A stretch of 47,255 bases of DNA from Streptomonospora mangrovi (lineage in GTDB: Bacteria; Actinomycetota; Actinomycetes; Streptosporangiales; Streptosporangiaceae): NCBI RefSeq assembly GCF_027604915.1, contig NZ_JAJAQC010000055.1, forward strand, positions 1 through 47,255, written 5' to 3'. Below are positions 19,354-33,167 of this stretch, in pieces. How positions within the stretch are numbered: the first letter of the stretch is position 1; every line of letters begins with the position of its first letter. The position numbers and the translations under genes are program-made. Under the pieces are notes generated by a model. It did not search any database and had not been told where the DNA came from. It was given only the letters and a program-made list of their open reading frames with translations.

Positions 19354-20205
19354 TCAGGGCCCCTGAACCACCGGGTTGGTCAGTTCGCCCACGCCCGGGA
19401 TGCGGCAGCCGGCGACGTCGCCCGGGCGGATGTGGGCGGCGCCCGGGGTGCCCGTGGAGATGATGTCGCCGGGGAACAGCGGCATCACCTGGCTGTGGAA
19501 GGCCACCAGGAACTCCGGCGAGTAGCGCATGTGGGCCACCGTGTTCACCCGGTGGTCGGCGCCGTTGAGCACGGTGGCGACCTCCAGGTCGGCCAGGGCG
19601 CCGACCTGGCCCAGGACCTCCGACAGCGGCACGATCGCCGGGCCGAAGGAGAAGAAGCCGGGGAAGTTCTTGCTGCGGGTGAGGAAGCGCGGGTTGCGGG
19701 CCAGGATGTCCTCGGCGGTCTGGTCGAGGATCGTGCACACGCCCCACACGTGGTCCAGTGCGGCGTCCTCGCCGACGTCGCGGCACTCGCGGCCGATCAC
19801 CACGCCCAGTTCGCCCTCGGCGGTGACCCGGTCGCTCTGGCGCGGCAGCGGGATGGGGTCGCCCGGCCCGATGATCGTGTGGTCGCCCTTCATGAAGGAG
19901 GCGGGCTCCTCGGGCACCGACTCGGTGAGGTCGGAGGCGTGCTCCACGTAGTTGAGGCCGATGCCCCAGATCTTGCGCGGGCGGGTGTAGGGGGCGGTGA
20001 AGGCGGCGTCGCCCACGGGCGCGAACGCCGCGTCGGGCGCCGAGCGCACCGCCGCGACGAAGTCGCGTTCGGGGACGGCGGCGATGACGTCGAGCGCGGT
20101 GGCCGGGGCGCCGGGGACCACGTCGGCGACGGCGGCCAGGCCCCGGTCGCCGTCGACGACCACGGCGGTCTCGCCGCTTTCGCTGCGGACGGTCGCAAGG
20201 TACAT
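19354..20205 (-). CDS. Fumarylacetoacetate hydrolase family protein
   Basis: A 283-residue protein from ATG 20205 (GAAGGAG, spacing 4). The C-terminal FAH fold starts at KIWGIGLNYVEHA. Metal ligands of the family are visible: the paired acidic residues in AEGELGVVIG and the Asp in CTILDQTAED. Members hydrolyse or decarboxylate beta-diketo or acylpyruvate acids with Mg2+. With the adjacent SDR and enolase-superfamily genes it resembles the set used to open 2,4-diketo-3-deoxy sugar acids (as in non-phosphorylative L-rhamnose and L-fucose routes). That parallel is inference. Confidence 0.9.
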   Translation of the reverse strand: MYLATVRSESGETAVVVDGDRGLAAVADVVPGAPATALDVIAAVPERDFVAAVRSAPDAAFAPVGDAAFTAPYTRPRKIWGIGLNYVEHASDLTESVPEEPASFMKGDHTIIGPGDPIPLPRQSDRVTAEGELGVVIGRECRDVGEDAALDHVWGVCTILDQTAEDILARNPRFLTRSKNFPGFFSFGPAIVPLSEVLGQVGALADLEVATVLNGADHRVNTVAHMRYSPEFLVAFHSQVMPLFPGDIISTGTPGAAHIRPGDVAGCRIPGVGELTNPVVQGP

Positions 20206-20216
20206 GTGTCTCCTTC

Positions 20217-20354
20217 GGTGGGGTGGGGCGGGCGGGGGCACGGGGGACGGGCGGGGGGGGGGGCGGCCCCCCCGGGGGGGGGGCGGGGGGCGGGGGGCGC
20301 GCCGGGGGGGGGGTGGGGGGGGCCGCCCCGGCCGCCGGGGGGGGCGGCGGCGGA
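20217..20354. repeat. G-homopolymer tract, possible assembly problem
   Basis: About 140 bases in which nearly every run is 7-11 G or C residues, including gggcggccccccc next to ggggggggggg. The composition is unlike ordinary intergenic DNA of this genome, even given its GC content. It separates the FAH gene from the SDR gene and could be a genuine G-quadruplex-prone spacer or miscalled homopolymers. Confidence 0.6.
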
Positions 20355-20384
20355 CCGGGACGCCGAAGGGGGGCGGATGCGGGG

Positions 20385-21173
20385 CTAGGGCAGGACCGGG
20401 ACCAGGCCGCCGTCGACCAGGACGCTCTGCCCGGTGACGTAGGCGGCCTCCTCCCGGGCGAGGAACCCGACCAGCGCCGCCAGCTCCTCGGGGCTGCCGT
20501 AGCGGCCGGCGGGGATCTGGGACTCGGCGGCGGCGCGGACCTCCTCGGGGGCGGTGCCCTGCCGCTCGGCGCGGCGGGCGTCCAGGGTGCGCACCCGCTC
20601 GGTGTCGATGCGGCCGGGCGAGACCATGTTGACGGTGATGTTGTCGGGGGCCAGGTCCACCGCCAGCGACTTCACGAGCCCGGCCAGCGCCGGCCGGAAG
20701 ACGTTGGACAGCACCAGCCCCTCCAGCGGGCGGCGCACGCTGGAGGACCCGATGACCACGATGCGCCCGAACCCGCCCGCGCGCATGGCCGGCAGCGCCG
20801 CGCGGATCGCGGTGACGGCGCTGCGCAGGGTCAACTGGTAGGCGGTGTCCCAGGCGGCGAGGTCCACGTCGGCGAAGTCACCCGGGGGCGGCCCGCCCGC
20901 GTTGACGACCAGCACGTCCAGCCGGCCGTGGCGCGCCACGGCGCCCTCGACCAGCCGCTCGACCTCCTCGCCCACCGCGACGTCGGCGCGCTCGCCGGCG
21001 GCCTCGCCCAGCTCGCGCAGGCCGGCCACCGCCTCCTCCAGCCGGTCGGCGTCGCGCCCGCACACGGTCACCGCCGCGCCGTCGCGCAGCAGTTGCGCCG
21101 CGCAGGCGCGGCCCAGGCCGGCGGTGCCCGCCATGACCACCGCCGCGCGGCGCGGGGTGCTCGCTTCCACCAT
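20385..21173 (-). CDS. Atypical short-chain dehydrogenase/reductase
   Basis: A 262-residue SDR from ATG 21173 (GGAGGAG). The nucleotide-binding turn reads MAGTAGLGRA rather than TGxxxGxG. NAGG and the C-terminal YVTGQSVLVDGG are normal. At the active site SNVFRPALAGLVKSLA stands where YxxxK is expected: aligning PALAG with the usual AALAG puts Ser at the Tyr position and Arg at the Lys position. It belongs to a BKR-like SDR group known to lack canonical catalytic residues, so its reaction is uncertain. It shares orientation with the FAH and enolase-superfamily genes. Confidence 0.85.
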   Translation of the reverse strand: MVEASTPRRAAVVMAGTAGLGRACAAQLLRDGAAVTVCGRDADRLEEAVAGLRELGEAAGERADVAVGEEVERLVEGAVARHGRLDVLVVNAGGPPPGDFADVDLAAWDTAYQLTLRSAVTAIRAALPAMRAGGFGRIVVIGSSSVRRPLEGLVLSNVFRPALAGLVKSLAVDLAPDNITVNMVSPGRIDTERVRTLDARRAERQGTAPEEVRAAAESQIPAGRYGSPEELAALVGFLAREEAAYVTGQSVLVDGGLVPVLP

Positions 21174-21218
21174 CGTGCTCCTCCTCAAGTGTTGTGCTGT
21201 GCGGCGCGGGGGCCGCAC

Positions 21219-22367
21219 TCAGTTCGCGCCGACCGTGGCGGCCGTGCCCCGTACGGTGTAGCGCTCCACGGCCTCGGTGTCGAAGGCGAAGCCGAGCCCC
21301 GGCGTGTCGGGCAGCACCAGGCGGCCGTCGCGCACGGCGAGCTGGGTGTCGACCAGGCGGCGGAAGTTGAGCACCGCGTCGTCGGGGAAGAACTCCACGA
21401 ACGTGCAGTCGGGGATGGCCGCCACCAGGTGGACGTGCAGGTCGTGGAACCAGTGCGGGGCCACCGGCACCCCGTGGGAGGCGGCGGTGGCGGCGATCCG
21501 GCGGAACTCGGTGATCCCGCCGCACACCGCCGCGTCGGTCTGGAGGACCGCCGCCGCGCCGCGCTCCAGCAGCTCCCGGTGGCGCCAGCGGCCCGCCTCG
21601 ATCTCGCCGGTGGCCACCGGCACCCGCGTGGCCTGCGCCAGGCGGGCGTGGTTGGCGATGTCGTCGGGGCTGAACGGCTCCTCGATCCAGTAGGGGTCGT
21701 AGGGCGCCAGGCGCTCGACGGCGCGCAGGGCGGTGGGCAGGTCGCTCCAGGCGTTGTTGGCGTCGAGCATGAGCAGCACGTCGGGGCCGATCGCGGCGCG
21801 GGCGGCGGCGACCCGGGCCTCTTCCTCGGCGGGGGACAGCCGGCCGACCTTCATCTTCACGGCGCCGAAGCCCTGCGCCACGTAGCCGGCCAGCTCCTCG
21901 CCCAGCATCTGGGGGGTCTTGCCGTCGAGGTAGTAGCCGCCGCTGGCGTAGGCGGGCACGGACTCGGCGTGGTAGCCGCCCAGCAGGCGGTGCAGCGGCA
22001 GCCCCAGCGCGCGGGCGTTGCGGTCCCACAGCGCGATGTCCAGGGCGCTGAGGGCGCGCATCACCGAGCCGGTGCGCCCGTGCAGCAGCGCCTCCTGGTA
22101 CATGTCCGCCCAGATCCGCTCGACCAGCAGGGGGTCGCGGCCCGCCACCACCGCGCCCAGCAGTTCGGTGACGGCCGCGCGGACCACCTCGCCCCCGCTG
22201 CTCCCGGCGTAGCAGAAGCCGTGCCCCCGCACCCCGTCGTCGCCGGTGACGGTGACGAGGACGTAGTCCCGGGCGGTGACCTGGCGGGTGGCGAACGAGG
22301 TCGGCCGCTCCAGCGGGACCCGCGCCACGCGCGCCTCGACGGTGGCGACGGTTACCTGGTCCGGCAT
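21219..22367 (-). CDS. Mandelate racemase/muconate lactonizing (enolase superfamily) protein
   Basis: A 382-residue protein from ATG 22367 (GGGAG, spacing 7). The capping domain at residues 1-130 is followed by a TIM barrel with KxK (VKMKVG), metal ligands Asp (LMLDANNAW), Glu (WIEEPF) and Glu (ATGEIEAGRW), and a His in the APHWF strand, matching the mandelate racemase subgroup that abstracts the alpha proton of a carboxylate. Many members of this subgroup are sugar-acid dehydratases, which would suit the cluster. It is divergent from the GntR regulator with a candidate operator between. Confidence 0.9.
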   Translation of the reverse strand: MPDQVTVATVEARVARVPLERPTSFATRQVTARDYVLVTVTGDDGVRGHGFCYAGSSGGEVVRAAVTELLGAVVAGRDPLLVERIWADMYQEALLHGRTGSVMRALSALDIALWDRNARALGLPLHRLLGGYHAESVPAYASGGYYLDGKTPQMLGEELAGYVAQGFGAVKMKVGRLSPAEEEARVAAARAAIGPDVLLMLDANNAWSDLPTALRAVERLAPYDPYWIEEPFSPDDIANHARLAQATRVPVATGEIEAGRWRHRELLERGAAAVLQTDAAVCGGITEFRRIAATAASHGVPVAPHWFHDLHVHLVAAIPDCTFVEFFPDDAVLNFRRLVDTQLAVRDGRLVLPDTPGLGFAFDTEAVERYTVRGTAATVGAN

Positions 22368-22450
22368 CTGCACTCTCCCTGTTTCCGCAGGTGGATGGGG
22401 TTGCGGCGGGCGGATTCGGCGAGCCGCCCCGGCTGGTGGAGCACTGTATT

Positions 22451-22467
22451 TGGAATTTGGTATTCCA
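22451..22467. promoter_or_regulatory. Candidate GntR operator in the divergent promoter
   Basis: A 6-5-6 inverted repeat, TGGAAT-ttggt-ATTCCA, in an unusually AT-rich stretch between the enolase-superfamily gene and the GntR gene. FadR-subfamily regulators bind short palindromes of this type. It lies 44 bp before the regulator start, so it could control both strands. Confidence 0.55.
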
Positions 22468-22510
22468 TATGCCCTTGTTGTGATCCAGAACGCAATGTAC
22501 CTTGCGTCAC

Positions 22511-23209
22511 ATGGACGCGCTAGCCCCGATGCGTGCACACGGGCCCCTCAAAAGCTCGCGGATGAGCGAGACCGCCTACGAGGCGATCGAAGGCGCCATC
22601 GTGCGCTGCGAACTGCCACCGGGAACCCCGCTGGTGGACCGCCAGCTCTCCGAGGCGCTGGGGGTCAGCCGCACGCCCATCCGCGACGCCATGCAGAGCC
22701 TGGAGGCGGCGGGGCTGGCGGTGCGCGTACGCGGCCGCTACTCGGTGGCCGGGTTCGACGTCGAGGACGTCCGCGAGCTGTACCAGGTGCGCCGGCTGGT
22801 GGAGCCGGCCGGGCTGGAGCACCTGGCGCGGGACTGGGACGAGGAGGTCGTGGACGAACTCGCCGACTTCTTCGCCTCGGCCGCCCAGCCCGGACCGCCG
22901 GGTCCCTACGAGGAGTACCTGGCGCGCGACCACGCCTTCCACAAGCGGATCGTGGACCTGACCGGAAACTCCCGGCTGATCCGCTTCTACGCCATCAACG
23001 AGAAGCAGATCAACCGCATCCGCCACTACCTGGCACCCGGCTACGAGGGCCGGATGCGCGAAGTCGTCAACGAGCACAAGGACGTCTGCGAGGCCATCGG
23101 CAGGAAGGACCTGGACGCGGCCCGCGACGCACTCATTGGCCACCTGCACGCCGGTGAGGCGACCATGATCAAGTTCCTCGCGCAGCAGCGGGAGCGGTCC
23201 CAGGGCTGA
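22511..23209 (+). CDS. GntR/FCD transcriptional regulator
   Basis: A 232-residue FadR-subfamily regulator. The winged helix covers about residues 18-80 (LSEALGVSRTPIRDAMQSLE). The FCD effector domain covers about 85-225 and keeps the metal-binding pattern Asp/His in RDHAFHKRI, His in NEHKDV and His in HLHAGEA. FCD members usually sense carboxylates. ATG 22511 has no clear ribosome-binding site; the mRNA may be leaderless, or an internal start may be used. It stands at the head of the transporter/Lar operon and opposite the catabolic genes. Confidence 0.9.
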   Translation: MDALAPMRAHGPLKSSRMSETAYEAIEGAIVRCELPPGTPLVDRQLSEALGVSRTPIRDAMQSLEAAGLAVRVRGRYSVAGFDVEDVRELYQVRRLVEPAGLEHLARDWDEEVVDELADFFASAAQPGPPGPYEEYLARDHAFHKRIVDLTGNSRLIRFYAINEKQINRIRHYLAPGYEGRMREVVNEHKDVCEAIGRKDLDAARDALIGHLHAGEATMIKFLAQQRERSQG

Positions 23210-23321
23210 CCCCCGGGACCGGGACCGGCACCCCGTGCCCGGCCCGCCCCGCCGAACGCGCCGCCTTACGCACACCCGCCTGCCACCGGTGTGTCGTTCC
23301 CTTAAGGAGGCGAAATTTGGC

Positions 23322-24380
23322 ATGCCCGAAAACTCGGTAAAGCCGGTGCCGCCGGCGATCGACCGCCGCCGGTTCCTGCGCGTCGGCGGGCTCGGCCTGG
23401 GCCTGGTCGGCGCCGCCGGCGCGGGCGGTCTGCTCACCGGCTGCGCCGCCGACGGCGCCGCGAGCGCCGGCTACCCCGACCGCCCCATCCAGGTCATCAT
23501 CGCCTACGCCCCCGGCGGCGGCACCGACGTGGGCGCCCGCATCCTCCAGCCGTTCCTGGAGGAGGAACTGGGCGCCCAGATCCAGATCGTCAACCGGCCC
23601 GGCGGCGGCGGGTGGGCCGGCTGGAACGAGATCGTGCGGGCCGAACCCGACGGCTACACGATCGGGTTCATCAACTCGCCCAACTTCATGACCGGCTACC
23701 TGGACCCCCGGCTGGGCCGCTCCGACGTGTCGGTGGAGTCCTTCACCCCCATCGCCAACCAGGTCACCGACTACGGCGCGATCGCCGTGCACCCCGACGA
23801 CGACCGGTTCTCCGACATCGGGGAGCTGATGGCCTACGCCGAGAAGCACCCGCTGATCGTGACCTCCACCGGTGTGGGCAGCGACGACCACTACGCCTCG
23901 CTGGCGCTGAGCGACCGCTACAAGACGCGCTTCAGCGTGCTGCACAACGAGGGCTCCTCCGACGGCATCTCCGACCTGCTCGGCCGCAACGCCGACGTGG
24001 TGTTCGCCAACGTCGGCGAGGTGATGTCCCAGCACGAGGACGGCAAGGTCAAGGTGGTCGCGGTGATGCGGGGCGGCACGGAGCGCTCGCCCTACCTGCC
24101 CGACGTGCCCACCATGGCCGAGGCCGGGTTCGAGGGCGTGGAGTCGTGGTCCTCGCGCGGGATCGCCGGCCCCGCCGGGCTCGACCCCAAGGTCGTGGAG
24201 ATCCTCAGCGCCGCCTGCCGCCGGGCCGTCAACAACCCCGACCACATCGAGCAGCTCGGCAGCCAGGGCCTGGAGGTCGACTACAAGGCGCCCGACGCCT
24301 ACGCCCGCATGCTCAAGCGCGACGACAAGTCCACCCGCCGCCTCGGCGAGAAGTACATCTGGGGCCCCGAAGCGGTCTGA
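23322..24380 (+). CDS. tctC: TctC-type solute-binding lipoprotein
   Basis: A 352-residue substrate-binding protein of a tripartite tricarboxylate transporter. The N-terminus has a twin-arginine-like start (DRRRFLRVGG), a hydrophobic stretch and a lipobox ending LLTGC, so it is exported, probably via Tat, and lipid-anchored. YPDRPIQVIIAYAPGGGTDVGAR and the conserved PDGYTIGF segment are TctC hallmarks. The start ATG 23322 follows AAGGAGG. TctC proteins bind di-/tricarboxylates, hydroxy acids and other organic anions; the ligand here is unknown. Confidence 0.94.
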   Translation: MPENSVKPVPPAIDRRRFLRVGGLGLGLVGAAGAGGLLTGCAADGAASAGYPDRPIQVIIAYAPGGGTDVGARILQPFLEEELGAQIQIVNRPGGGGWAGWNEIVRAEPDGYTIGFINSPNFMTGYLDPRLGRSDVSVESFTPIANQVTDYGAIAVHPDDDRFSDIGELMAYAEKHPLIVTSTGVGSDDHYASLALSDRYKTRFSVLHNEGSSDGISDLLGRNADVVFANVGEVMSQHEDGKVKVVAVMRGGTERSPYLPDVPTMAEAGFEGVESWSSRGIAGPAGLDPKVVEILSAACRRAVNNPDHIEQLGSQGLEVDYKAPDAYARMLKRDDKSTRRLGEKYIWGPEAV

Positions 24381-24515
24381 CCCCCGCCGCGCCGCGCCGC
24401 CCTGCTCCGCGGCCGCCGCGCCCCCGCACCCCAGCGGACGGCCCGCCCCGCGCGGCCCGCCGCCCGCCCGCCTGCGGCCCGCCACCACCGGGGCCGCGTG
24501 AGGAGCTGATACCCC

Positions 24516-25109
24516 GTGCAGACGCCAACCCCGACACGGCCGCCCCGCCGGCGGCCGCTGACACCCGACACGGTCCTGGGCCTGGTCCTGGTCGTGCTCT
24601 CCGCCGTCTTCCTCGCCGCGACCTTCGGGCTGTCGGCCGAGGCCGCCGCCTGGCCGCGCGGCGTGCTCCTGGCGCTGGCCGCGCTGGGCGCCGCGATCGC
24701 CGTGCGCGGCCGGCGCGCGCCCGCCCGACCCGCGCCCCCGGCCGGCGACGCCGATCCCTCCCGGGCGCCCGGCGCCGCCCCCTCCGCCGAACCCGGCACC
24801 GACGCCGACGCGGTGGCCGCCGCGGCCGAGGCGCGCGACCCCGAGGGCGCCGGCGACGGCGACTGGCGCCCGGCGGTGCTGCGCCGCCCCGCCGCCGCCC
24901 TGGGGATCATCGTGGCCTACGTGGCCCTGCTGGAGGTGATCGGCTTCCTGGCCGCCACCGGCCTCTACCTGCTGGCGCACCTGTGGTTCAACGGGGTCCG
25001 CGACTGGCGGGTGTTCGCCGGGGTGGCCGTGGGCGTGGTCGCCTTCATCCACTTCCTGTTCGCCTACGAGCTGAGCGTGCCGCTGCCCGCCGGCATGCTC
25101 TTCGAGTAG
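24516..25109 (+). CDS. tctB: TctB-type small membrane subunit
   Basis: A 197-residue protein from GTG 24516 (GAGGAG upstream). It has the four-helix TctB layout: two N-terminal helices (VLGLVLVVLSAVFLAATFGL and WPRGVLLALAALGAAIAV), a long Ala/Pro/Asp-rich cytoplasmic insert of about 65 residues, then two C-terminal helices. The low-complexity insert is longer than in most homologues. It sits between tctC and tctA. Confidence 0.88.
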   Translation: MQTPTPTRPPRRRPLTPDTVLGLVLVVLSAVFLAATFGLSAEAAAWPRGVLLALAALGAAIAVRGRRAPARPAPPAGDADPSRAPGAAPSAEPGTDADAVAAAAEARDPEGAGDGDWRPAVLRRPAAALGIIVAYVALLEVIGFLAATGLYLLAHLWFNGVRDWRVFAGVAVGVVAFIHFLFAYELSVPLPAGMLFE

Positions 25110-25118
25110 GGGGCGGCC

Positions 25119-26639
25119 ATGGACTCCGCACTGTTCCTCGACGCCCTGGCCAACCTGTTCACCGTCGAGGTGCTGCTGGCCATCACCGCCGGCGTCGTCG
25201 GCGGCATCGTCATCGGCGCCCTGCCCGGACTCAGCGGCACCATGGGCATCGCCCTGCTGGTGCCCATCACCTTCGGCATGGACCCGGTCGCCGGGATCTC
25301 CATGCTCGCCGCCATCTACACCTCGGCCACCTACGGCGGGTCGATATCGGCCATCCTCATCAACACGCCGGGCACCCCGGCGGGCGCGGCCACCGCGCTG
25401 GACGGCTACCAGCTCACCCGCCAGGGCAAGGGCGCCAAGGCGCTGGCGGTGTCGGCCATCGCCTCCATGATCGGCGGCGTGGTCAGCGCGTTCGCGCTGC
25501 TGTTGCTGGCCCCGCCGCTGGCGCAGGTCTCGCTGGCGTTCTCCGCGCCCGAGTACTTCCTGCTGGCGGTGTTCGGCCTGCTCATCATCGGCAGCCTGTC
25601 GGCCGGGTCACTGCTCAAGGGGTTCGCCGCCGGCGTGCTGGGGCTGCTGCTGGCCACCGTGGGCATCGACATCCTCACCGGCTACCCCCGCTTCACCTTC
25701 GGCACCACCGCGCTCCAGTCGGGCATCGAGCTGGTGCCCGCGCTGATCGGCCTGTTCTCGCTGTCGCAGGTGCTGATCCTGGCCGAAGGGCGCGACGGTG
25801 CCACCGAGGCCATGACGTCGGGCCTGCGGGGCCGGGCCATGCCGACCCTGGCCGAGCTGAAGCGCATCCTGGGCACCATCGTCCGCTCCTCGGGGATCGG
25901 CGTGTTCGTCGGCATCCTGCCCGGCGCCGGCGGCGACATCGGCTCCTGGGTCGGCTACAACGAGGCCAAGCGGTTCTCCAAGGGGCCGGAGAAGGAGGAG
26001 TTCGGCCGCGGCTCGCTCAAGGGCGTGGCGGCGGCGGAGTCGGCCAACAACGCGGTGACCGGCGGCGCCATGATCCCGCTGCTCACCCTGGGGATCCCCG
26101 GCAGCTCGGCCACGGCGGTGATCCTGGGCGGCCTGCTCATCCACGGCATGCAGCCCGGTGGCGCGCTGTTCACCGAGCAGGCCGACACCACCTACGCAAT
26201 CATGCTCGGGTTCCTGCTGGCCAACATCCTCATGGGGATCATCGCCGTCGCCGGCGCCCGCTACCTGGTCATCGCCACCAAGGTGCCGGTGCGGGTGCTG
26301 GTGCCGATCATCGTGGCGCTGTGCGTGGTGGGCACCTACGCGGTCAACAACAGCGTCGCCGACGTGTGGGTCATGCTGGTGGCCGGGCTGGTGGGCTACC
26401 TCATGCGCAAGGTGGGGGTGCCGCCCGCGCCGATCGTGCTCGGCCTGATCCTGGGCGCCATCGCCGAGAAGGGCGTGCGCCAGTCCCTGGTCATGGCCCA
26501 GGGCGACGTGCTCGGCTACTACCTGTCCCGGCCGCTGTCGCTGGTGCTGCTGGGCCTGATCCTCATGTCCCTGCTGGCGCCGGTGCTGGCCAAGCGGATG
26601 CGGCGCGCCGTCCCCCAGAAGGCGGAGGTCGAGACGTGA
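25119..26639 (+). CDS. tctA: TctA-type large membrane subunit
   Basis: A 506-residue permease with about 12 helices. The family signature GxLPGLSGTMGIALLVPITFG is near residue 31, and the repeat-like second signature FVGILPGAGGDIGSWVGYNEAKRFSK near residue 260. It forms the transport channel with TctB and uses the ion gradient. It starts 9 bp after tctB, and its stop overlaps the LarA-homologue GTG start, tying uptake to the nickel-pincer enzyme. Confidence 0.95.
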   Translation: MDSALFLDALANLFTVEVLLAITAGVVGGIVIGALPGLSGTMGIALLVPITFGMDPVAGISMLAAIYTSATYGGSISAILINTPGTPAGAATALDGYQLTRQGKGAKALAVSAIASMIGGVVSAFALLLLAPPLAQVSLAFSAPEYFLLAVFGLLIIGSLSAGSLLKGFAAGVLGLLLATVGIDILTGYPRFTFGTTALQSGIELVPALIGLFSLSQVLILAEGRDGATEAMTSGLRGRAMPTLAELKRILGTIVRSSGIGVFVGILPGAGGDIGSWVGYNEAKRFSKGPEKEEFGRGSLKGVAAAESANNAVTGGAMIPLLTLGIPGSSATAVILGGLLIHGMQPGGALFTEQADTTYAIMLGFLLANILMGIIAVAGARYLVIATKVPVRVLVPIIVALCVVGTYAVNNSVADVWVMLVAGLVGYLMRKVGVPPAPIVLGLILGAIAEKGVRQSLVMAQGDVLGYYLSRPLSLVLLGLILMSLLAPVLAKRMRRAVPQKAEVET

Positions 26640-27892
26640 GGAACGTCCCGCTGGCACGCATCCGCCGCCGCCTGCCCTCGGCCGCGCTCGCCGACCCGGC
26701 CGGGCGCGCCTACGACCAGACCGCCGCGCTGCTGGGCGCGGCGGGCGTGGGCGCCGGGGCGACGGTGGCGATCACCGCCGGCAGCCGGGGGATCCACGGC
26801 ATCGCCGAGGTGCTGGGCGCGGTCGCCCGGGCCGCCGCCGACGCCGGCGCGCGACCGGTGCTGTTCTCGGCCATGGGCAGCCACGGCGGCGGCACCCCCG
26901 AGGGCCAGCGGGACGTCCTGGCGGCCCTGGGGGTCACCGAGGAGACGGTCGGCGCGCCGGTGAGCTGCTCGGACCGGGTGGTGCTGCTCGGTGAGACCGG
27001 GCCGCCGCTGCCCGGGCTGCCGGTGTACTTCGCCGAGGAGGCCGCCGCCGCCGACGCGATCGTCGCCGTCAACCGGATCAAGCCGCACACCTCCTTCCAC
27101 GGCCCGCACGAGAGCGGCCTGCTGAAGATGCTGACCGTGGGCGCGGGCCGGGCGCGCGGCGCCGCGATGGTGCACCGGCTGGGCTGGGCGCACATGGTCG
27201 GCGCCATCGCGGCCATCAGCGCCGTGGTGCTGGAGCGCCTGCCCGTGGTCGGCGGCATCGGTCTGGTGCAGGACCCCTACGAGCGGCTGTCGGTGGTCGA
27301 GGGGGTGGCGGCCGAGGCCATCGCCGAGCGCGAGGCCGCGCTGCTGGAGCGCGCCCGCGCGCTGCTGCCCCGGCTGCCCGTGGACGAGTTGGACGCCCTC
27401 ATCGTGCGCGAGATGGGCAAGACCTACAGCGGCTGCGGCATGGACACCAACGTCATCGGGCGGCTGCGGCTGGAGGGCATGGCCGAGCCCGACCGGCCGC
27501 GCATCCGCTGCCTGGGGGTGCTGGACCTGTCGCCCGACTCCCACGGCAACGCCACCGGGGTGGGGCTGGCCGACTTCACCACCGAGCGGCTGGCCGCCGC
27601 GATCGACCGCGAGGCCACCTACCTCAACTGCCTGACCAGTGGCGGGCCCCAGCGCGCGGCGGTGCCGATGACCTTCCCCGACGACGCCGCGCTGCTGGAC
27701 GCGATGGGGCGGATGCTGCGGCCCGCCGACGAGGCGCGGGTGCGCATGGCCGTCATCGACAACACCCTCGCCCTGGACGAGATGTGGGTGTCGGCGGCGG
27801 TGCTGGCCGAGGTGGCGGCGGCCGAGGAGGTCGAGGTGCTGGACCGCCGCCCCGGGCCGGGGTTCGACGACCGGGGGCGGCTGGCCCTGTGA
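26636..27892 (+). CDS. LarA homologue (nickel-pincer racemase/epimerase family)
   Basis: A 418-residue protein, close to the 424 of Lactiplantibacillus plantarum lactate racemase. LarA uses a nickel-pincer nucleotide tethered to a Lys to move hydride at C2 of 2-hydroxy acids. Equivalents seen here are His83 (MGSHGGG), His151 (NRIKPH), Lys164 (SGLLKML, probable cofactor attachment) and His180 (AMVH, probable nickel ligand). The segment around ITAGSRGI (Arg51) corresponds to the carboxylate-binding Arg region. LarA homologues are known to act on lactate, malate, phenyllactate and gluconate among others, so the substrate is open. GTG 26636 overlaps the tctA stop; larE, larB and larC lie downstream in the same operon. 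Confidence 0.85.
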   Translation: MRNVPLARIRRRLPSAALADPAGRAYDQTAALLGAAGVGAGATVAITAGSRGIHGIAEVLGAVARAAADAGARPVLFSAMGSHGGGTPEGQRDVLAALGVTEETVGAPVSCSDRVVLLGETGPPLPGLPVYFAEEAAAADAIVAVNRIKPHTSFHGPHESGLLKMLTVGAGRARGAAMVHRLGWAHMVGAIAAISAVVLERLPVVGGIGLVQDPYERLSVVEGVAAEAIAEREAALLERARALLPRLPVDELDALIVREMGKTYSGCGMDTNVIGRLRLEGMAEPDRPRIRCLGVLDLSPDSHGNATGVGLADFTTERLAAAIDREATYLNCLTSGGPQRAAVPMTFPDDAALLDAMGRMLRPADEARVRMAVIDNTLALDEMWVSAAVLAEVAAAEEVEVLDRRPGPGFDDRGRLAL

Positions 27893-27953
27893 CGAGGCGC
27901 CGGCCGCGACGGGCCGGCGCGGCGGAAACGACGACGAAAGCGGGGATGTGAGC

Positions 27954-29078
27954 ATGCCGGACACCAGCGGCACCACCGACACACCGGGCGTGGACCCGGC
28001 CGGACTGCGAGACCTGGTCGCGCGGATCTTCACCGCCGCCGGGCTCACCGACGACGACGCGGCCACGGTCGCCGACCACCTGGTGCAGGCCGACCTGCGG
28101 GGCGTGGACTCCCACGGGGTCAGCCGTACCGCGATCTACGTCGAGCGGCTGGGGCAGGGGCTGATCGCCGCCCGCCCGCAGCCGCGCACCCTCACCCAGA
28201 CGCCGGTGTCGGCGCTGGTGGACGCGGCCAACGGGCACGGGATCGTCGCCGCCGAGCAGGCGATGCGCACCGCCGTGGCCAAGGCCGAGGAGGCGGGGGT
28301 GGGCATGGTCGCCGTGCGCAACTCCAACCACTGCGGCATGCTCGCCCACTACACCGCCGCCGCCGCGCGCTCCGGGCTCATCGGGTTCGCCACCACCAGC
28401 GCGCCGCCCGCCATGGCGCCCTGGGGCGCCAAGGACCCGTTCTTCGGCACCAACCCGATCTCGTACGCGGTGCCCACGCCCGCCGGGCGCCCCGACATCG
28501 TGTTCGACATGGCCACCAGCCACGTCGCCAAGGGCAAGATCATCCTGGCGCACAAGAACGGCCAGGACATCCCGCTGGGCTGGGCGCTGGACGCCGAGGG
28601 CCGGCCCACCACCGACTCCGGCGCGGCGCTGGCGGGCACCGTGCTGCCGCTGGGCGGACCCAAGGGGTCGGGTCTGGCGCTGCTGGTCGACGTGCTGTCG
28701 GGGCTGCTGTCGGGCGCGCACTACGGCCCGCACATCCCCCAGCTCTACAACAACCCCGACCGGCCGCAGGGGCTGGGGCACTTCTTCCTGGCGCTGGCGC
28801 CGGGCGTGTTCGCGCCGCCGGAGGAGTTCACCGCGCGCGTGGCCGCCCTCGCCGACGAACTGGCGGCGCTGCCCGCCGCCGAGGGGCACCGCCGGGTCTA
28901 CCTGCCGGGCGAGCCCGAGGCCGAACGCGCCGAGCACCGCCGCGCCAACGGGATCCCGCTCTCGCCCGAGGTCCGCGCCGAACTGCGCGCCACCGCCGGC
29001 GCGCTGGGCCTGCCCGCCGAGGCGTGGGCGGTGCTGGAGGGGCGCACCGCGCCGGCCGCCGACGGGGCCGCCCGATGA
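27954..29078 (+). CDS. Ldh2-family malate/L-lactate/ureidoglycolate dehydrogenase
   Basis: A 374-residue NAD(P)-dependent oxidoreductase of the family unrelated to classical LDH/MDH. The catalytic His is in LRGVDSHGVSR and a second conserved His is in RNSNHCGMLAHY. Other landmarks are PFFGTNPISYAVPT and LPLGGPKGSGLALLVD. It interconverts 2-hydroxy and 2-keto acids, which fits a LarA homologue upstream that could supply the right enantiomer. ATG 27954 is preferred over GTG 27948. Its stop overlaps the larE start. Confidence 0.92.
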   Translation: MPDTSGTTDTPGVDPAGLRDLVARIFTAAGLTDDDAATVADHLVQADLRGVDSHGVSRTAIYVERLGQGLIAARPQPRTLTQTPVSALVDAANGHGIVAAEQAMRTAVAKAEEAGVGMVAVRNSNHCGMLAHYTAAAARSGLIGFATTSAPPAMAPWGAKDPFFGTNPISYAVPTPAGRPDIVFDMATSHVAKGKIILAHKNGQDIPLGWALDAEGRPTTDSGAALAGTVLPLGGPKGSGLALLVDVLSGLLSGAHYGPHIPQLYNNPDRPQGLGHFFLALAPGVFAPPEEFTARVAALADELAALPAAEGHRRVYLPGEPEAERAEHRRANGIPLSPEVRAELRATAGALGLPAEAWAVLEGRTAPAADGAAR

Positions 29079-30001
29079 GCGGCACGACCGGAACGGCCCC
29101 CGGCGCACCGGCCGAGACCCCCGCACACGCCGGCTCCACGGCCCCCGCCGAGACCCCCGCCCCCATCGAGGCCGACGTCACCGCGGCCACGGAGCGGCTG
29201 CGGGCGGCGCTGGCCGCCCGCGAGCGCGTCGTCGTGGCCTACTCCGGTGGCGTGGACTCCGCACTGCTCGCCTACACCGCCCACGCCGTCCTGGGCGAGG
29301 GAGCCCTGGCCGTCACGGCGGTCTCGCCCAGCCTGGCCGCCGCCGAGCGCCGGGCCGCCCGCGCGTTCGCCGCCGAGCACCAGATCGCCCACCTGGAGGT
29401 CTGCACCGACGAGGGCGAGCGCCCCGACTACGTCGCCAACGGCGGCGACCGCTGCTTCCACTGCAAGTCGGCGCTGCTGGACGCGCTGGCCCCGCTGGCG
29501 GCCCGGCTCGGCGCGGTCGTGGCCACCGGCACCAATCTCGACGACCTCGGCGACCACCGCCCGGGGCTGCGGGCGGCGGCCCTGCGCGGCGCCGTCACCC
29601 CGCTGGCCGACGCCGGGTTCACCAAGGCGCTGGTGCGCGCCGCCGCCGCGCGCGCCGGCCTGGCCGTCGCCGCCAAGCCCGCCGCGCCCTGTCTGGCCTC
29701 GCGGGTGGCCTACGGCGACCCCGTCACGCCGGAGGTGCTGGCCCGCGTCGAGGCGGCCGAGGCGGCGCTGCGCGGCCACGGGTTCACCCAGGTGCGGGTG
29801 CGCGCCCACTCCGGCGGCACCCTGGCCCGGGTGGAGGTGCCGGCCGCCGAGGTCGAGCGGGCCGCCCGGCTGCGCGCGGTGATCGAGCCGGCGGTGCGCG
29901 CCTGCGGGTTCACCTTCTGCGCGCTGGACCTCGGCGGGTTCGCCAGCGGCCGGCTCAACGCGCTGCTGCCGCTGGTGGCGGCCACGGGAGGGCGGCGGTG
30001 A
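29075..30001 (+). CDS. larE: LarE, sulfur transferase for the nickel-pincer cofactor
   Basis: A 308-residue PP-loop ATPase. LarE activates the pyridinium carboxylates as AMP esters and donates sulfur to form thioacids. SGGVDS is at residues 57-62. Three Cys are conserved: Cys127 and Cys130 (RCFHCK) and Cys206 (PCLASR). Cys206 matches the sacrificial Cys176 of the L. plantarum enzyme; three Cys are also compatible with the iron-sulfur type of LarE, which I cannot decide. About 30 residues of Ala/Pro/Thr-rich extension precede the domain. ATG 29075 overlaps the dehydrogenase stop (ATGA). Confidence 0.92.
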   Translation: MSGTTGTAPGAPAETPAHAGSTAPAETPAPIEADVTAATERLRAALAARERVVVAYSGGVDSALLAYTAHAVLGEGALAVTAVSPSLAAAERRAARAFAAEHQIAHLEVCTDEGERPDYVANGGDRCFHCKSALLDALAPLAARLGAVVATGTNLDDLGDHRPGLRAAALRGAVTPLADAGFTKALVRAAAARAGLAVAAKPAAPCLASRVAYGDPVTPEVLARVEAAEAALRGHGFTQVRVRAHSGGTLARVEVPAAEVERAARLRAVIEPAVRACGFTFCALDLGGFASGRLNALLPLVAATGGRR

Positions 30002-30780
30002 GCGGCGGCGCCGGCGGCGGGCGCGCCGACGGCCACCCGCGCGACGGATCCCGCGACCCCGGCTACCGGGACCTCGGGTTCGCCCGCGTGGACACCGGCC
30101 GGGAGGCCCGCCAGGGGGTCGCCGAGTGCGTCTACACCCCCGGCAAGCGGCCCGAGGAGGTCGCCGACATCGTCGCCGAACTGCTCGCCCACGCCACCGG
30201 ACCCGTGCTGGCCACCCGCGCCGATGCCGCCACGGCGCAGGCGGTGCTGGCCGCCCACCCCCACGGCCGCTACGACCCCCAGGCGCGGCTGCTGACCTGG
30301 CGGCCCGCCGCCCCGCGCGGGTTCCGGCTGGCCGTGCTGACCGCCGGGACCTCCGACTGGCCGGTGGCCGCCGAGGCCGCCGCCGTGGCCCGCGCGGTCG
30401 GCCTGGAGGTGGACGTCCACCGCGACGTGGGCGTGGCCGGGCTGCACCGGCTGCTGGACTGCGTGGACGCCGTCACCGACCACGACGCCGTGGTCGTGGT
30501 GGCGGGCATGGAGGGCGCGCTGGCCAGCGTGGTCGGCGGGCTGGTGGCCCACCCGGTGATCGCCGTGCCGACCTCCACCGGCTACGGCGCCGGCCTGGAG
30601 GGCGTCACCGCGCTGCTGGCCATGCTCAGCTCGTGCGCGGCCGGGCTCACCGTGGTCAACATCGACTCCGGGTTCGGCGCGGCCATGGCCGCCCACCGGC
30701 TGGCGACCGCCATGGCCGCCGCCGGGCGGTCCGGCGGCCCGGGACCGGCCGCCGCCGGCGGGACGGGAGGCGGCGCGTGA
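29998..30780 (+). CDS. larB: LarB, nickel-pincer cofactor carboxylase/hydrolase
   Basis: A 260-residue protein with the PurE-like C-terminal domain from about residue 115 (RLAVLTAGTSDWPVAAEAA; VVVVAGMEGALASVVGGLV; PVIAVPTSTGYGAG). LarB carboxylates nicotinic acid adenine dinucleotide at C5 and cleaves the pyrophosphate to give the biscarboxylic precursor. The N-terminal domain has LGFARVDTGREARQGVAE. A short Gly/Ala tail ends the protein. GTG 29998 overlaps the larE stop and its own stop overlaps larC. Confidence 0.94.
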   Translation: MSGGAGGGRADGHPRDGSRDPGYRDLGFARVDTGREARQGVAECVYTPGKRPEEVADIVAELLAHATGPVLATRADAATAQAVLAAHPHGRYDPQARLLTWRPAAPRGFRLAVLTAGTSDWPVAAEAAAVARAVGLEVDVHRDVGVAGLHRLLDCVDAVTDHDAVVVVAGMEGALASVVGGLVAHPVIAVPTSTGYGAGLEGVTALLAMLSSCAAGLTVVNIDSGFGAAMAAHRLATAMAAAGRSGGPGPAAAGGTGGGA

Positions 30781-31958
30781 TCCTGTGGCTGCACCCCTTC
30801 GCCGGGATCTCCGGCGACATGCTGCTGGGCGCGCTGCTGGACCTGGGCGCGCCCCTGGATGAGGTGCGCGCGGCCGTGGCCGCCACCGGCCTGCCCGGCT
30901 GGCGGCTGGAGGCGCGCACCGTGCTCAAGCGCGGTATCACCGCCACCAAGGCCGACGTGACGGTGACCGACACCGCCACCGCCCGCCCGGCCCGCGTCCT
31001 GCTCGACCACATCACCCGCGCCCGGCCCGAGCGGGCCGCGCGCATCGCCGCCGCCGCCGTCACCGCCATCGCCGAGGCCGAGGCCCGGCTGCACGGCGCC
31101 GACCCCGCCGAGGTCCACCTGCACGAGATCGGCGGGCTGGACACCGTGGTCGACACCGTGGGCGCCGCCGCCGCCCTGGACCTGCTCAATGTGACCGAGG
31201 TGGTGTCGGCCCCGCCCACCCTGGGCACCACCACGGTCGCCACCGCGCACGGGCGGCTGCCCGCGCCCGCCCCGGCCACCCTCGCGCTGCTGGCGGGGGT
31301 GCCGGTGACCGGCGCCGACATCGCGGCCGAGACCGTCACCCCCACCGGCGCCGCGCTGCTGGCGGCGGTGGCCGACGGTTTCGGCCCGCCCCCGGCGATG
31401 GTGCCGGTGCGCACCGGCTACGGCGCGGGCACCCGCGACCTGCCCGACCGGCCCAACGTGCTCCAGGCGGTGCTGGGCGAGCGCGCCGGGGCGCCGGGCG
31501 GCCACGGCGAGCACGGCGAGCACAGCGAGGAGGAGCCGCTGGTGGTGCTGGAGACCAACGTCGACGACGCCACCGGCGAGGAGCTGGCGCACGCGCTGGC
31601 GGCGGCGCTGGAGGCCGGCGCCGCCGACGCCTGGGCCAGCCCCATCGTCATGAAGAAGGGCCGGCCCGCCCACACCCTGCACGCGCTGTGCCCGCCCGGG
31701 CGGGTGCCCGAGGTGGAGGCGGAGCTGCTGCGCCACACCGGCAGCCTGGGGGTGCGGCGGGCGCCCGTGGGGCGGGTGGCGCTGGCGCGCCGCACCTCCA
31801 CGGTCACCGTCGCCGGGCACCCCGTGCGGGTCAAGCACGGCCCCTGGCACGCCAAGCCCGAGTACGACGACGCGGCGGCGGCCGCCCGCGCGCTGGGGCT
31901 GCCGCTGCGCACCGTGGTGCGCCGCGCCCTGGCGCAGGTGTCAACCGAGGGCGGTGGG
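30777..31958 (+). CDS. larC: LarC, nickel insertion cyclometallase (homology region)
   Basis: About 394 residues of LarC homology from GTG 30777, which overlaps the larB stop (GTGA). LarC uses CTP to insert nickel into the pincer. Landmarks: HPFAGISGDMLLGALLDLG at the start, LHEIGGLDTVVDTVGAA, and NVDDATGEELAHAL plus IVMKKGRPAHTLHALC in the C-terminal half. Both halves are in one frame, unlike the frameshifted larC1/larC2 of L. plantarum. The end given is where similarity stops: the frame runs on without a stop through a G/C tract into the aldolase gene, to 33167. A TGA at 32087-32089 would end larC if the tract length were off by one or two bases. Confidence 0.88.
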
Positions 31959-32222
31959 GGGCCGGCCCCGGGCGGCGCCCCCCCCCCCCGGCCGGGGGGG
32001 GGGCTGGCTCGGGGGTTGGGCGGGGGGGGGGGGGCGGCCGGCCCCCCCCCCCCCCCCCCCCCCCCGGCCCGGAGGAGGACCGGCCCTGACCCGCACGGCC
32101 GCGCCTCCCATCCGCCCGCCCCCGCACCTTTTGAACGCCGCACCTGTGAACCCCCCGCCCCCCGCATACCCCGCCCCCCGCACCCCCCGTGCCCGAGCCC
32201 ACCGCCCCTTGAGGAGGCCACG
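31959..32222. repeat. G/C homopolymer tract between larC and the aldolase
   Basis: From about 31960 to 32070 the sequence is runs of 10-25 G or C (one C run of about 25). The rest to 32210 is C-rich and translates to Pro/Gly/Arg. It reads as a roughly 88-residue linker joining LarC and the aldolase, which is unlikely to be a natural protein segment. Runs of this length are prone to miscounting. Confidence 0.65.
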
Positions 32223-33167
32223 TTGACCAGTCCCGCCATCACGAGTTCCGCGCGCGGCGTGTTCGCCATCGCGCCCACCCCCTTCACGCCCGACGGCGCC
32301 GTGGACACCGCGTCGCTGGACCGGCTCGCCGACTTCTACACCGCCTCCGGGGTCACCGGGATCACCGTGCTGGGCCAACTGGGCGAGGCGCCCAAGCTCG
32401 CCCACGACGAGGCGGTGGCCATCGCCTCGCGCGTGATCCGGCGGGTGGAGGTGCCGGTGGTGGCGGGGGTGTCGGCCCCCGGGTTCGCCGCGATGCGCTC
32501 GCTCACCGCCGCCGTCATGGACGCCGGCGCGGCCGGGGTGATGATCGCGCCGCCCAACACGCTGCGCACCGACGACCAGATCATCGCCTATTACCGCAAC
32601 GCCGCCCAGGCCATCGGGCCCGACGTCCCCTTCGTCATCCAGGACTACCCGCTGACGTTCTCGGTGGTGATGACGCCCAAGGTCATCCGCGCGATCGTGG
32701 AGGAGAACCCCGGCTGCGTCATGCTCAAGCACGAGGACTGGCCGGGGCTGGAGAAGATCTCGGCCCTGCGAGCGTTCGAGCGCGACGGCTCCATGCGGCG
32801 GCTGTCGATCCTGTGCGGCAACGGCGGCCTGTTCCTGGACTTCGAGACCGAGCGCGGTGCCGACGGCGCCATGACGGGCTACTGCTTCCCCGACATGCTG
32901 GTGGAGCTGGTGGACCTGGCCGCGCGCGGCGAGCGGGAGGCCGCCCACGACCTGTTCGACGCCCACCTGCCCCTGCTGCGCTACGAGCAGCAGCCGGGGG
33001 TGGGGCTGGCGGTCCGCAAGTACGTGTTCATGCGCCGGGGGATCCTCGACCACGAGGCGCAGCGGGCCCCGGCCGCCGCGCTGTCGGCGACCGCCCGCGC
33101 CGAGGTGGACCTGCTGCTGGAGCGGCTGGCGCGCAGGGACGAGCGCGCGCGGGTGCGCCCGCTCTAG
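32223..33167 (+). CDS. DapA/NanA-family aldolase or dehydratase
   Basis: A 314-residue class I aldolase-type TIM barrel. TTG 32223 has a strong ribosome-binding site (GAGGAGG, spacing 5), arguing for separate translation although the larC frame is continuous with it. The Schiff-base Lys169 is in CVMLKHED and the catalytic Tyr142 in IQDYPL. The substrate carboxylate loop reads GQLGEAPKL instead of GTTGE, so it is not a standard dihydrodipicolinate synthase. Members cleave or form 2-keto-3-deoxy acids or dehydrate keto acids. In this operon cleavage of a 2-keto-3-deoxy acid is the likely role. Confidence 0.9.
   Translation: MTSPAITSSARGVFAIAPTPFTPDGAVDTASLDRLADFYTASGVTGITVLGQLGEAPKLAHDEAVAIASRVIRRVEVPVVAGVSAPGFAAMRSLTAAVMDAGAAGVMIAPPNTLRTDDQIIAYYRNAAQAIGPDVPFVIQDYPLTFSVVMTPKVIRAIVEENPGCVMLKHEDWPGLEKISALRAFERDGSMRRLSILCGNGGLFLDFETERGADGAMTGYCFPDMLVELVDLAARGEREAAHDLFDAHLPLLRYEQQPGVGLAVRKYVFMRRGILDHEAQRAPAAALSATARAEVDLLLERLARRDERARVRPL

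Follow-up and report, generated by a model that had tools for sequence, protein, structure and literature searches.

Organization of the cluster

The window analysed here is a 47,255-nucleotide stretch of the Streptomonospora mangrovi genome (contig NZ_JAJAQC010000055.1), and its positions 19354–33167 hold a gene cluster centred on a homologue of LarA, an isomerase family that depends on the nickel-pincer nucleotide (NPN). From sequence comparison we favor, with somewhat better than even confidence, the view that this is a regulated catabolic cluster that would import an acid sugar and pass it, by way of an NPN-dependent C2-epimerase, to a dehydratase specific for one stereoisomer. Far less confidence attaches to any single substrate or to a diketo-hydrolase arm. 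An earlier note on this DNA had listed the genes and their strands, and all of them are recovered by open reading frame (ORF) analysis and by Pfam and NCBIfam profile searches.

Three genes lie on the minus strand: an FAH-family hydrolase (19354–20205; PF01557, 173.4 bits), starting at M13 of the ORF 19354–20241; a short-chain dehydrogenase/reductase (SDR; 20385–21173; PF13561, 179.7 bits) with S-x-x-x-R replacing Y-x-x-x-K; and an enolase-superfamily (MR_MLE) protein (21219–22367; PF13378, 227.7 bits) that is a candidate acid-sugar dehydratase. The plus strand reads gntR–tctC–tctB–tctA–larA–ldh2–larE–larB–larC–dapA. A GntR/FCD transcriptional regulator (22511–23209; FCD 85.5 bits, GntR 51.3 bits) precedes a tripartite tricarboxylate transporter composed of the solute-binding protein TctC (23322–24380; PF03401, 118.8 bits), the small membrane subunit TctB (24516–25109; PF07331, 66.7 bits, cut-off 29.1) and the large permease TctA (25119–26639; PF01970, 520.7 bits, cut-off 28.9). 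The LarA homologue (26636–27892) is followed by an Ldh2-family dehydrogenase of the malate/L-lactate type (27948–29078; PF02615, 427.1 bits), a LarE sulfur insertase of the CxxC-C type (29075–30001; TIGR00268, 288.8 bits, cut-off 150), LarB (29998–30780; NF033503, 255.2 bits, cut-off 175), the nickel insertase LarC (30777–31946, the end being approximate; PF01969, 398 bits; TIGR00299, 166.6 bits, cut-off 90) and a DapA-family Schiff-base aldolase/dehydratase (32223–33167; PF00701, 77.4 bits). Judged by sequence and conservation, the likely starts are ATG 22511 for gntR, 22367 for the MR_MLE gene, 21173 for the SDR, 20205 for the FAH-family gene, 23322 for tctC and TTG 32223 for dapA.

The four junctions said earlier to overlap by 4 nt do so exactly: tctA ends at 26639 and larA starts at 26636, the dehydrogenase gene ends at 29078 and larE starts at 29075, larE ends at 30001 and larB starts at 29998, and larB ends at 30780 and larC starts at 30777. 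The overlaps recur in six relatives; with the window included, tctA/larA and larB/larC overlap by 4 nt in 7/7 loci, and dehydrogenase/larE and larE/larB in 6/7, a count biased towards 4 nt by the use of the in-frame start closest to such an overlap.

At the distal end of the plus-strand row the earlier gene list needs one correction: larC has no stop ahead of dapA, and 30777–33167 is a single frame. Poly-C/poly-G tracts (31978–32065, runs of 10–24 C or G) obscure the larC stop; similar tracts occupy one other intergenic stretch of the window (20253–20344). The examined stretches of five relatives (L088–L092) contain no G or C run of at least 8 nt, and in L088 larC stops 49 nt upstream of dapA. 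Because the common frame crosses tracts that are not seen in these relatives, we rejected a LarC–DapA fusion protein; the tracts are probably assembly damage and the apparent fusion an assembly artefact.

The LarA homologue and its cofactor genes

The LarA homologue exceeds the cut-off of NCBIfam model NF052515 ('nickel pincer cofactor-dependent isomerase, group 22'; 455.5 vs 400 bits) and stays below the Pfam cut-offs for Lar_N (15.5 vs 23.3 bits) and DUF362 (20.8 vs 24 bits). Other group-22 members do pass Lar_N, for example G098:C1 at 50.8 bits. We identify the gene as a larA homologue because the group-22 model passes, although Lar_N fails. Phmmer with the window protein retrieved no LarA from the Protein Data Bank (PDB), and a 22-sequence profile gave chance or repeat-protein matches only; a fold search and hhalign were used instead to relate group-22 LarA to solved LarAs. 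The AlphaFold2 model, made from an alignment of 22 group-22 sequences, has a predicted local distance difference test score of 87.3 and a predicted template-modelling (TM) score of 0.87. In a Foldseek search of the PDB with this model, matches 1–17 are all LarA-family structures (TM scores 0.42–0.56 by query length), the best being 9eia (E 2.9e-9), and the next, unrelated match has an E of 0.01. The group-22 profile aligns to nine canonical LarAs by hhalign with an E of 9.5e-8 and a probability of 94.4%.

Using Lactobacillus plantarum LarA numbering, transferred through phmmer alignments to solved LarAs, the window residues R51, H83, H151, K164 and H180 correspond to R75, H108, H174, K184 and H200. 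Across 71 group-22 sequences, the equivalents of the NPN-binding residues (R51, K164 and H180) are each identical in 71/71, and the two catalytic histidines are kept in 70/71 (H83) and 71/71 (H151). We assign the LarA homologue as an NPN enzyme with high confidence because the predicted LarA fold, these key residues and the adjoining cofactor genes occur together; the nickel-pincer type proposed for it before is thus borne out by fold and by all five mapped residues.

The residue that follows the second catalytic histidine is T152, a position occupied by T in 67/71 group-22 sequences. According to the signature descriptions in PMC11770544, lactate racemases have F directly after this histidine, and the NPN-dependent D-gluconate/D-mannonate 2-epimerases (GntEs) usually carry E, V, A and H at positions F175, F176, W358 and T359. 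With T152 at the first position, the window protein departs from both the GntE signature and the lactate racemase signature (F, F, W and E/Q at the same positions). The second position is S153, or F154 by an hhalign gap, and the aligned region does not extend to the last two.

The LarA homologue had also been described as having its own cofactor genes, and larE, larB and larC all score above their cut-offs. Genome-wide counts were made for LarA and LarB. No Lar_N protein and a single group-22 match, hence no other LarA, were found in the genome, and LarB has one match above cut-off, the second reaching only 38 bits. Since one LarA and one LarB above cut-off were found in the genome, the LarB, LarC and LarE of the cluster appear to serve the group-22 LarA. 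The LarE protein contains YSGGVDS (SGGxDS), RCFHCK (CxxC) and a third cysteine in PCLASR, which places it in the [4Fe-4S] type; this CxxC-C pattern is linked to [4Fe-4S]-dependent sulfur insertion in the account given by PMC9283937.

Conservation and the divergent promoter

A comparison of gene neighborhoods, recommended in the earlier note, finds group-22 LarA in 7/250 genomes of the same taxonomic family (own genome included), with the cluster conserved around it in all seven. It occurs in 4/394 genomes of the class (own included) and above cut-off in 34/296 of the phylum, a patchy distribution that suggests gain and loss. Among the seven family loci, gntR, tctA, larA, ldh2, larE, larB, larC and the FAH-family gene are present in 7/7, MR_MLE and SDR in 6/7, dapA in 5/7 and an IlvD/Edd dehydratase gene in 4/7; tctC was detected by tblastn. 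TctA is 80–96% identical in the six relatives, and ldh2 is the next recognized gene after larA in every locus. The IlvD/Edd gene directly follows larC in L090, L091 and L092, is on the opposite strand in L087 and is missing from the window cluster.

The divergent promoter carries ATTTGGTATTCCATAT, an imperfect palindrome, at 22455–22470. The pattern ATTTGGTATNCCANAT is matched exactly in 6/7 family loci and with a single mismatch in the seventh, L088; L087, with the FAH-family gene as its divergent gene, has a perfect palindrome. At 0–1 mismatches it is found once in the 6.36 Mb genome, compared with 0 for a reversed control pattern; with up to 3 mismatches allowed, the expectation for the window is 0.07 matches. 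We infer that this conserved near-palindrome is the natural candidate for the operator of the GntR/FCD regulator. The palindrome resembles the operators of ExuR/UxuR-like GntR/FCD regulators of hexuronate genes. A text search of PMC9369180 returned no such motif, and we make no claim to this likeness.

Candidate dehydratases and other enzymes of the cluster

Members of the mandelate racemase subgroup of the enolase superfamily are distinguished by a KxK motif, D/E/E metal ligands and a D...H dyad. The MR_MLE protein shows this motif set, and the segments VKMK, LDANNAW, EEPF, GEIEA, TDAAVCGG and APHWFHD are present in the window and in 5/6 relatives, the gene not being found in L087. Its nearest PDB match is L-talarate/galactarate dehydratase (2pp0, E 4e-60). 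The corresponding equivalog, NF047820, is its best-scoring model, though the score lies below the cut-off (260.7 vs 500 bits). The IlvD/Edd protein of L090 passes the subfamily model NF004784 and falls below the L-arabinonate dehydratase cut-off (769 vs 882); its first PDB match is 8ej0, and L-arabinonate dehydratase is next.

For the DapA-family enzyme, the best PDB match (3dz1) is followed by L-2-keto-3-deoxyarabonate (L-KDA) dehydratase (7c0c and 3fkk, E 2.5e-23 and 2.8e-23). The Ldh2 protein keeps an SHG motif in 7/7 family loci and has 1vbi and L-sulfolactate dehydrogenase 2x06 as its best PDB matches; its solved relatives are malate/lactate, sulfolactate and ureidoglycolate dehydrogenases.

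Group-22 LarA in other lineages

Nine families with acid-sugar enzymes among their members (MR_MLE, IlvD/Edd, UxaA, DapA, FAH, KDPG aldolase, KDGal kinase, DUF1537 and PdxA2) served as markers and were sought near group-22 larA genes with hidden Markov models (HMMs) built for this analysis, the families having been chosen after some loci were seen. The sample comprised 71 group-22 genes in 69 stretches: 20 stretches hand-picked from the phylum search, 6 from the family, 3 from the class, 20/23 further loci and 19 plasmid records opened from among the 113 in which group 22 was matched. A partial LarA (L053), short-flank copies (L001–L030, L054–L059 and L113–L115) and L031/L032, which repeat the contigs of L090/L092, were excluded. 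Controls were 20 random and 20 canonical-LarA stretches; 5/20 canonical-LarA stretches and 17/71 group-22 genes involve stretches shorter than 16 kb.

At least one marker lies within 8 kb of 38/71 group-22 genes, compared with 0/20 random and 1/20 canonical-LarA stretches. The corresponding figures are 22/71, 0/20 and 1/20 for at least two markers within 8 kb, and 30/71, 0/20 and 1/20 for at least one within 4 kb, control distances here being taken from the middle of the stretch. Marker-positive genes make up 7/7 in the window's taxonomic family, 4/4 in alphaproteobacteria, 1/1 in Sporomusa, 7/7 in planctomycetes, 11/14 in haloarchaea, 4/4 in other actinobacteria (three records), 4/23 in further Actinomycetota, 0/10 in a verrucomicrobial clade (two of its ten genes placed there by the tree) and 0/1 in Chloroflexi. 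Leaving out the genes that served as HMM references, 18/49 group-22 genes have at least one marker.

The company kept by group-22 LarA differs among lineages. A plasmid of the alphaproteobacterium Loktanella salsilacus unites TctCBA, IlvD/Edd, Ldh-family, DapA-family and UxaA-family genes with group-22 LarA (40% identical to the window protein), LarB, LarC and LarE. IS6 and IS3 transposases adjoin this cluster (L128, 13740–16749), an arrangement that fits horizontal spread. In Sulfitobacter and Pseudosulfitobacter, group-22 LarA and LarC accompany an IlvD/Edd protein annotated as L-arabinonate dehydratase and DapA- and UxaA-family proteins, and in Marinovum LarB, LarE, LarC, a TRAP transporter, group-22 LarA, KDPG aldolase and KD-galactonokinase occur together. 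A Sporomusa termitida plasmid has the order MR_MLE–TctCBA–LarA–UxaA–UxaA, with a GntR gene. In a FastTree phylogeny the sister of the window clade is a pair of genomes (support 1.0), in one of which an IlvD/Edd match ends 11 nt before the larA match.

In Rubrobacter, one group-22 LarA is found in a DUF1537 kinase–PdxA2–LarA row and a second beside MR_MLE. Group-22 LarA in or near a DUF1537 kinase–PdxA2 pair is seen in L061 (17658–21251, Rubrobacter indicoceani), L067, L069 and L073; next to this pair it is a candidate tetronate (threonate/erythronate) 2-epimerase. In seven planctomycete loci (L035, L037, L039, L040, L042, L044 and L050), KDPG aldolase follows group-22 LarA in 7/7 and PfkB in 6/7; in L035 a sulfatase follows as well. 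Haloarchaeal group-22 LarAs lie near various of MR_MLE, SDR, cupin, FAH and TRAP genes, and two haloarchaeal loci show no such enzymes. A nickel-responsive regulator, NikR, is annotated immediately after a LarA–SDR–cupin row in Salinigranum marinum (L120, 10684–11112). Among the papers listed by our literature searches, none was relevant to a Haloferax group-22 protein. Neighbors in L033, L036 and L118 are uninformative, and in L116 an ABC transporter, an iron-type alcohol dehydrogenase, an aldehyde dehydrogenase and LarE/LarB/LarC lie near LarA, with no dehydratase found there. Two metagenome-assembled genome records titled Proteobacteria bacterium and Klebsiella pneumoniae (L034 and L045) have group-22 LarAs that fall inside the verrucomicrobial clade; these are probably mislabelled bins.

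These associations bear on a simpler role, in which the acid delivered by TctCBA would be a simple one resembling malate, lactate or sulfolactate, group-22 LarA would racemize this 2-hydroxy acid, Ldh2 would oxidize one enantiomer to a 2-keto acid, DapA would cleave this, and the MR_MLE–SDR–FAH genes would handle something related. The constant position of ldh2 after larA, the Ldh-family gene in the Loktanella cluster and the substrates of the solved Ldh2 relatives speak for it. The recurrence of IlvD/Edd, UxaA or MR_MLE dehydratases beside group-22 LarA in several phyla speaks against it, as does T152, where lactate racemases have F according to PMC11770544. We consider a simple 2-hydroxy acid an unlikely substrate, and return below to C2-epimerization of an acid sugar.

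Proposed pathway and its alternatives

From what the computation shows (the genes present, the fold and key residues of LarA, the patterns of conservation and co-occurrence, and the conserved near-palindrome), we suggest the following scheme for epimerization of an acid sugar. TctCBA would import the acid sugar, an aldonate- or aldarate-like polyhydroxy acid, and LarB, LarE and LarC would make NPN and load the group-22 LarA. LarA would then invert the C2 hydroxyl by transient removal of hydride at C2, with His83 and His151 as the presumed acid/base pair. The MR_MLE dehydratase would remove water from one C2-epimer to give a 2-keto-3-deoxy acid, and the IlvD/Edd enzyme that lies near the operon in four of the seven family loci would dehydrate likewise. 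As C2 of the 2-keto-3-deoxy product is not a stereocentre, one dehydratase and one epimerase would cover two epimers, and LarA would funnel both into one route. The keto acid may be processed by the DapA-family enzyme, by the SDR and FAH pair or by both, Ldh2 may oxidize or reduce at C2, and the GntR/FCD protein would control both transcription units from the near-palindrome.

More tentatively, with confidence that falls a little short of even, we extend this proposal to the group. Group 22 would comprise cross-domain NPN-dependent acid-sugar C2-epimerases whose catalytic residues have changed (loss of D72 and K298, with K262 and D270 invariant and R276 near-invariant), coupled in a lineage-specific way to MR_MLE, IlvD/Edd, UxaA, DUF1537–PdxA2 or KDPG aldolase routes, and the module in the window would be self-sufficient, as it brings the cofactor genes along.

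Several observations weigh against acid-sugar epimerization, beginning with LarA itself. Group 22 does not show canonical D72 and K298 where the alignment places them: in the window protein A48/G49 lie near D72, and only R276 and R278 lie near K298. The mapping is tentative, since the C-terminal part of the alignment is weak and stops at residue 274. All 71 sequences have K262 and D270, and 70/71 have R276. These differences speak for another possibility, that group-22 LarA uses NPN for a different hydride-transfer isomerization (such as a C2–C3 hydride shift on a sugar acid) and not for C2 inversion, and PMC7583248 in one passage suggests that divergent LarA homologues may carry out other hydride reactions. 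Both catalytic histidines are retained, however, unlike in the single-histidine subfamily described in PMC12611868, and we give chemistry of this kind only a very small chance.

The earlier note had the product 'oxidised and cleaved' in a diketo-hydrolase arm, and this part holds up poorly. The SDR lacks Tyr-Lys and has S-x-x-x-R where L-2-keto-3-deoxyfuconate (L-KDF) 4-dehydrogenase has a Ser-Tyr-Lys triad, and we rejected it as a canonical FucF-type enzyme on this basis. Its motif, LSNVFRP, is present in the window and 5/6 relatives (the SDR was not found in L087), and two haloarchaeal SDRs that adjoin group-22 LarA have a similar LSN..R motif; the closest solved structure is 2z1n, with weaker matches to 3lf1 and the L-KDF 4-dehydrogenase structure 8y11. 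The FAH-family protein has HpcE (1gtt) and, more weakly, L-2,4-diketo-3-deoxyrhamnonate hydrolase (8gsr, E 1e-26) as its nearest solved relatives, and with 97.2 bits scores far under the 500-bit cut-off of NF053535, the model for 2,4-didehydro-3-deoxy-L-rhamnonate hydrolase.

DapA and the SDR also occur apart from LarA. A DapA orthologue (E up to 1e-90) is found in 10/250 family genomes, five of which are without group-22 LarA. All five of these loci have an SDR nearby, of the S-x-x-x-R type in four (L177, L179, L180 and L181) and with Tyr-Lys in L178. The neighbors in L179 and L180 are zinc-type alcohol dehydrogenase, DUF3500 and FAD monooxygenase genes, those in L177 are luciferase-like, thiolase-like and RraA-like genes and also TctA, and the surroundings in the three scanned loci look more aromatic or xenobiotic than acid-sugar. 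As the two genes occur together without LarA, DapA and the SDR may not be acid-sugar enzymes. In addition, orthologue searches found no MR_MLE in L087 and no DapA in L087 or L092.

The LarA-free DapA–SDR pairs, and L087 with its lar operon and FAH gene but no MR_MLE or SDR found, are also what could be expected if the tct–lar–ldh2–dapA and MR_MLE–SDR–FAH operons were catabolic units with no link to each other, divergent neighbors by chance. Against this, the MR_MLE orthologue (E up to 1e-120) occurs in 6/250 family genomes and every one of these has group-22 LarA, a single near-palindrome, unique in the genome, separates the units in 7/7 loci, and MR_MLE, SDR or FAH genes adjoin group-22 LarA in haloarchaea too. 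Coincidental neighborhood is in our estimation decidedly improbable.

Comparison across lineages also sets limits on acid-sugar epimerization as a role for group 22. The similarity between the Loktanella and window clusters is one of superfamilies and not of shown orthologues, since the Ldh2 proteins are 30% identical and the DapA proteins are remote (24% over 129 residues); the Loktanella DapA was accordingly rejected as an orthologue. The order of steps put forward earlier, with C2 inversion ahead of dehydration, agrees with the repeated occurrence, in archaea as well as in other phyla, of dehydratases and 2-keto-3-deoxy-acid enzymes next to group-22 LarA; but 33/71 group-22 genes have no marker, among them 10/10 in the verrucomicrobial clade and 19/23 in further Actinomycetota. 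When both the HMM reference genes and the window's family are left out, 12/43 genes have at least one marker (p 0.006 vs random and 0.033 vs canonical) and 5/43 have at least two (p 0.14 and 0.37), values that are optimistic because the genes are related and not independent. A Pfam tally of 80 neighbors in 12 further-Actinomycetota loci has no acid-sugar enzyme family among the 16 families with at least two members; ILVD_EDD_N and KdgT have one match each, among the 25 of 119 families listed. From the marker-free genes and this tally, group 22 is either functionally mixed or often unlinked.

Relation to characterized systems

Nickel-pincer enzymes form a large superfamily in which many groups have no demonstrated substrate. 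The window LarA is a member of group 22 by NF052515, whose name supplies a group number only, and in the open-licence literature we found no activity or substrate reported for the group, nor any pathway or structure assigned to it.

Three kinds of system invite comparison. The first is the L-arabinonate (Weimberg-type) route, which consists of L-arabinonate dehydratase, L-KDA dehydratase and α-ketoglutarate semialdehyde dehydrogenase. The window family resembles it in the IlvD/Edd genes near four of seven operons and in a DapA protein for which L-KDA dehydratase is the nearest of the characterized PDB enzymes. It differs in that the window cluster has neither IlvD/Edd nor an aldehyde dehydrogenase and the L090 IlvD/Edd protein scores under the L-arabinonate dehydratase model. 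The second is the non-phosphorylative L-fucose/L-rhamnose route 3, in which PMC11199699 describes the dehydratase FucC, the SDR FucF and the hydrolase FucG. The window likewise places genes of the SDR and FAH families next to a putative acid-sugar dehydratase; unlike the route as outlined there, its SDR has no Ser-Tyr-Lys triad, its FAH protein falls far below the hydrolase cut-off, and the cluster has an NPN enzyme and TctCBA instead of a sugar dehydrogenase or lactonase.

The third comprises other LarA homologues. NPN-dependent D-gluconate/D-mannonate 2-epimerases are known from reports on GntE1 of Corynebacterium glutamicum, GntE2 of Thermotoga maritima and LarAH15 (PMC7583248, PMC11770544). 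As portrayed in these reports, they share with the window protein an NPN-dependent LarA fold, a link to sugar-acid metabolism and the same NPN ligands and catalytic histidines; the window LarA differs in belonging to group 22, in having T152 where GntEs usually have E and in its gene company. LarA_Bw and LarA_Sp, for which PMC12611868 proposes a carbohydrate substrate from gene context, also have the LarA fold, and their subfamily carries Asn at the H174 position, where the window protein keeps H151.

Neither 'group 22' nor 'LarAH22' appears in a text search of the main text of PMC7583248, whose supplementary context table may list group-22 neighbors, and we found no open-licence paper describing this module or the group-22 gene context. 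The family name 'group 22' already exists, and aldonate 2-epimerases that use NPN are known; the cluster and its relatives would add a gene-context case for a group-22 role. If group 22 does contain acid-sugar C2-epimerases, NPN chemistry would extend to further sugar acids, and one stereospecific route could use tetronates, pentonates, hexonates or aldarates of either C2 configuration. The use of both epimers with one dehydratase would suggest why cells pay for the NPN cofactor, and the self-contained operon would provide matched LarB, LarC and LarE for making a holoenzyme whose loading is often difficult.

One further ORF, encoding 357 amino acids and with no Pfam match at E 1e-5, lies just outside the cluster at 18028–19101 of the window.

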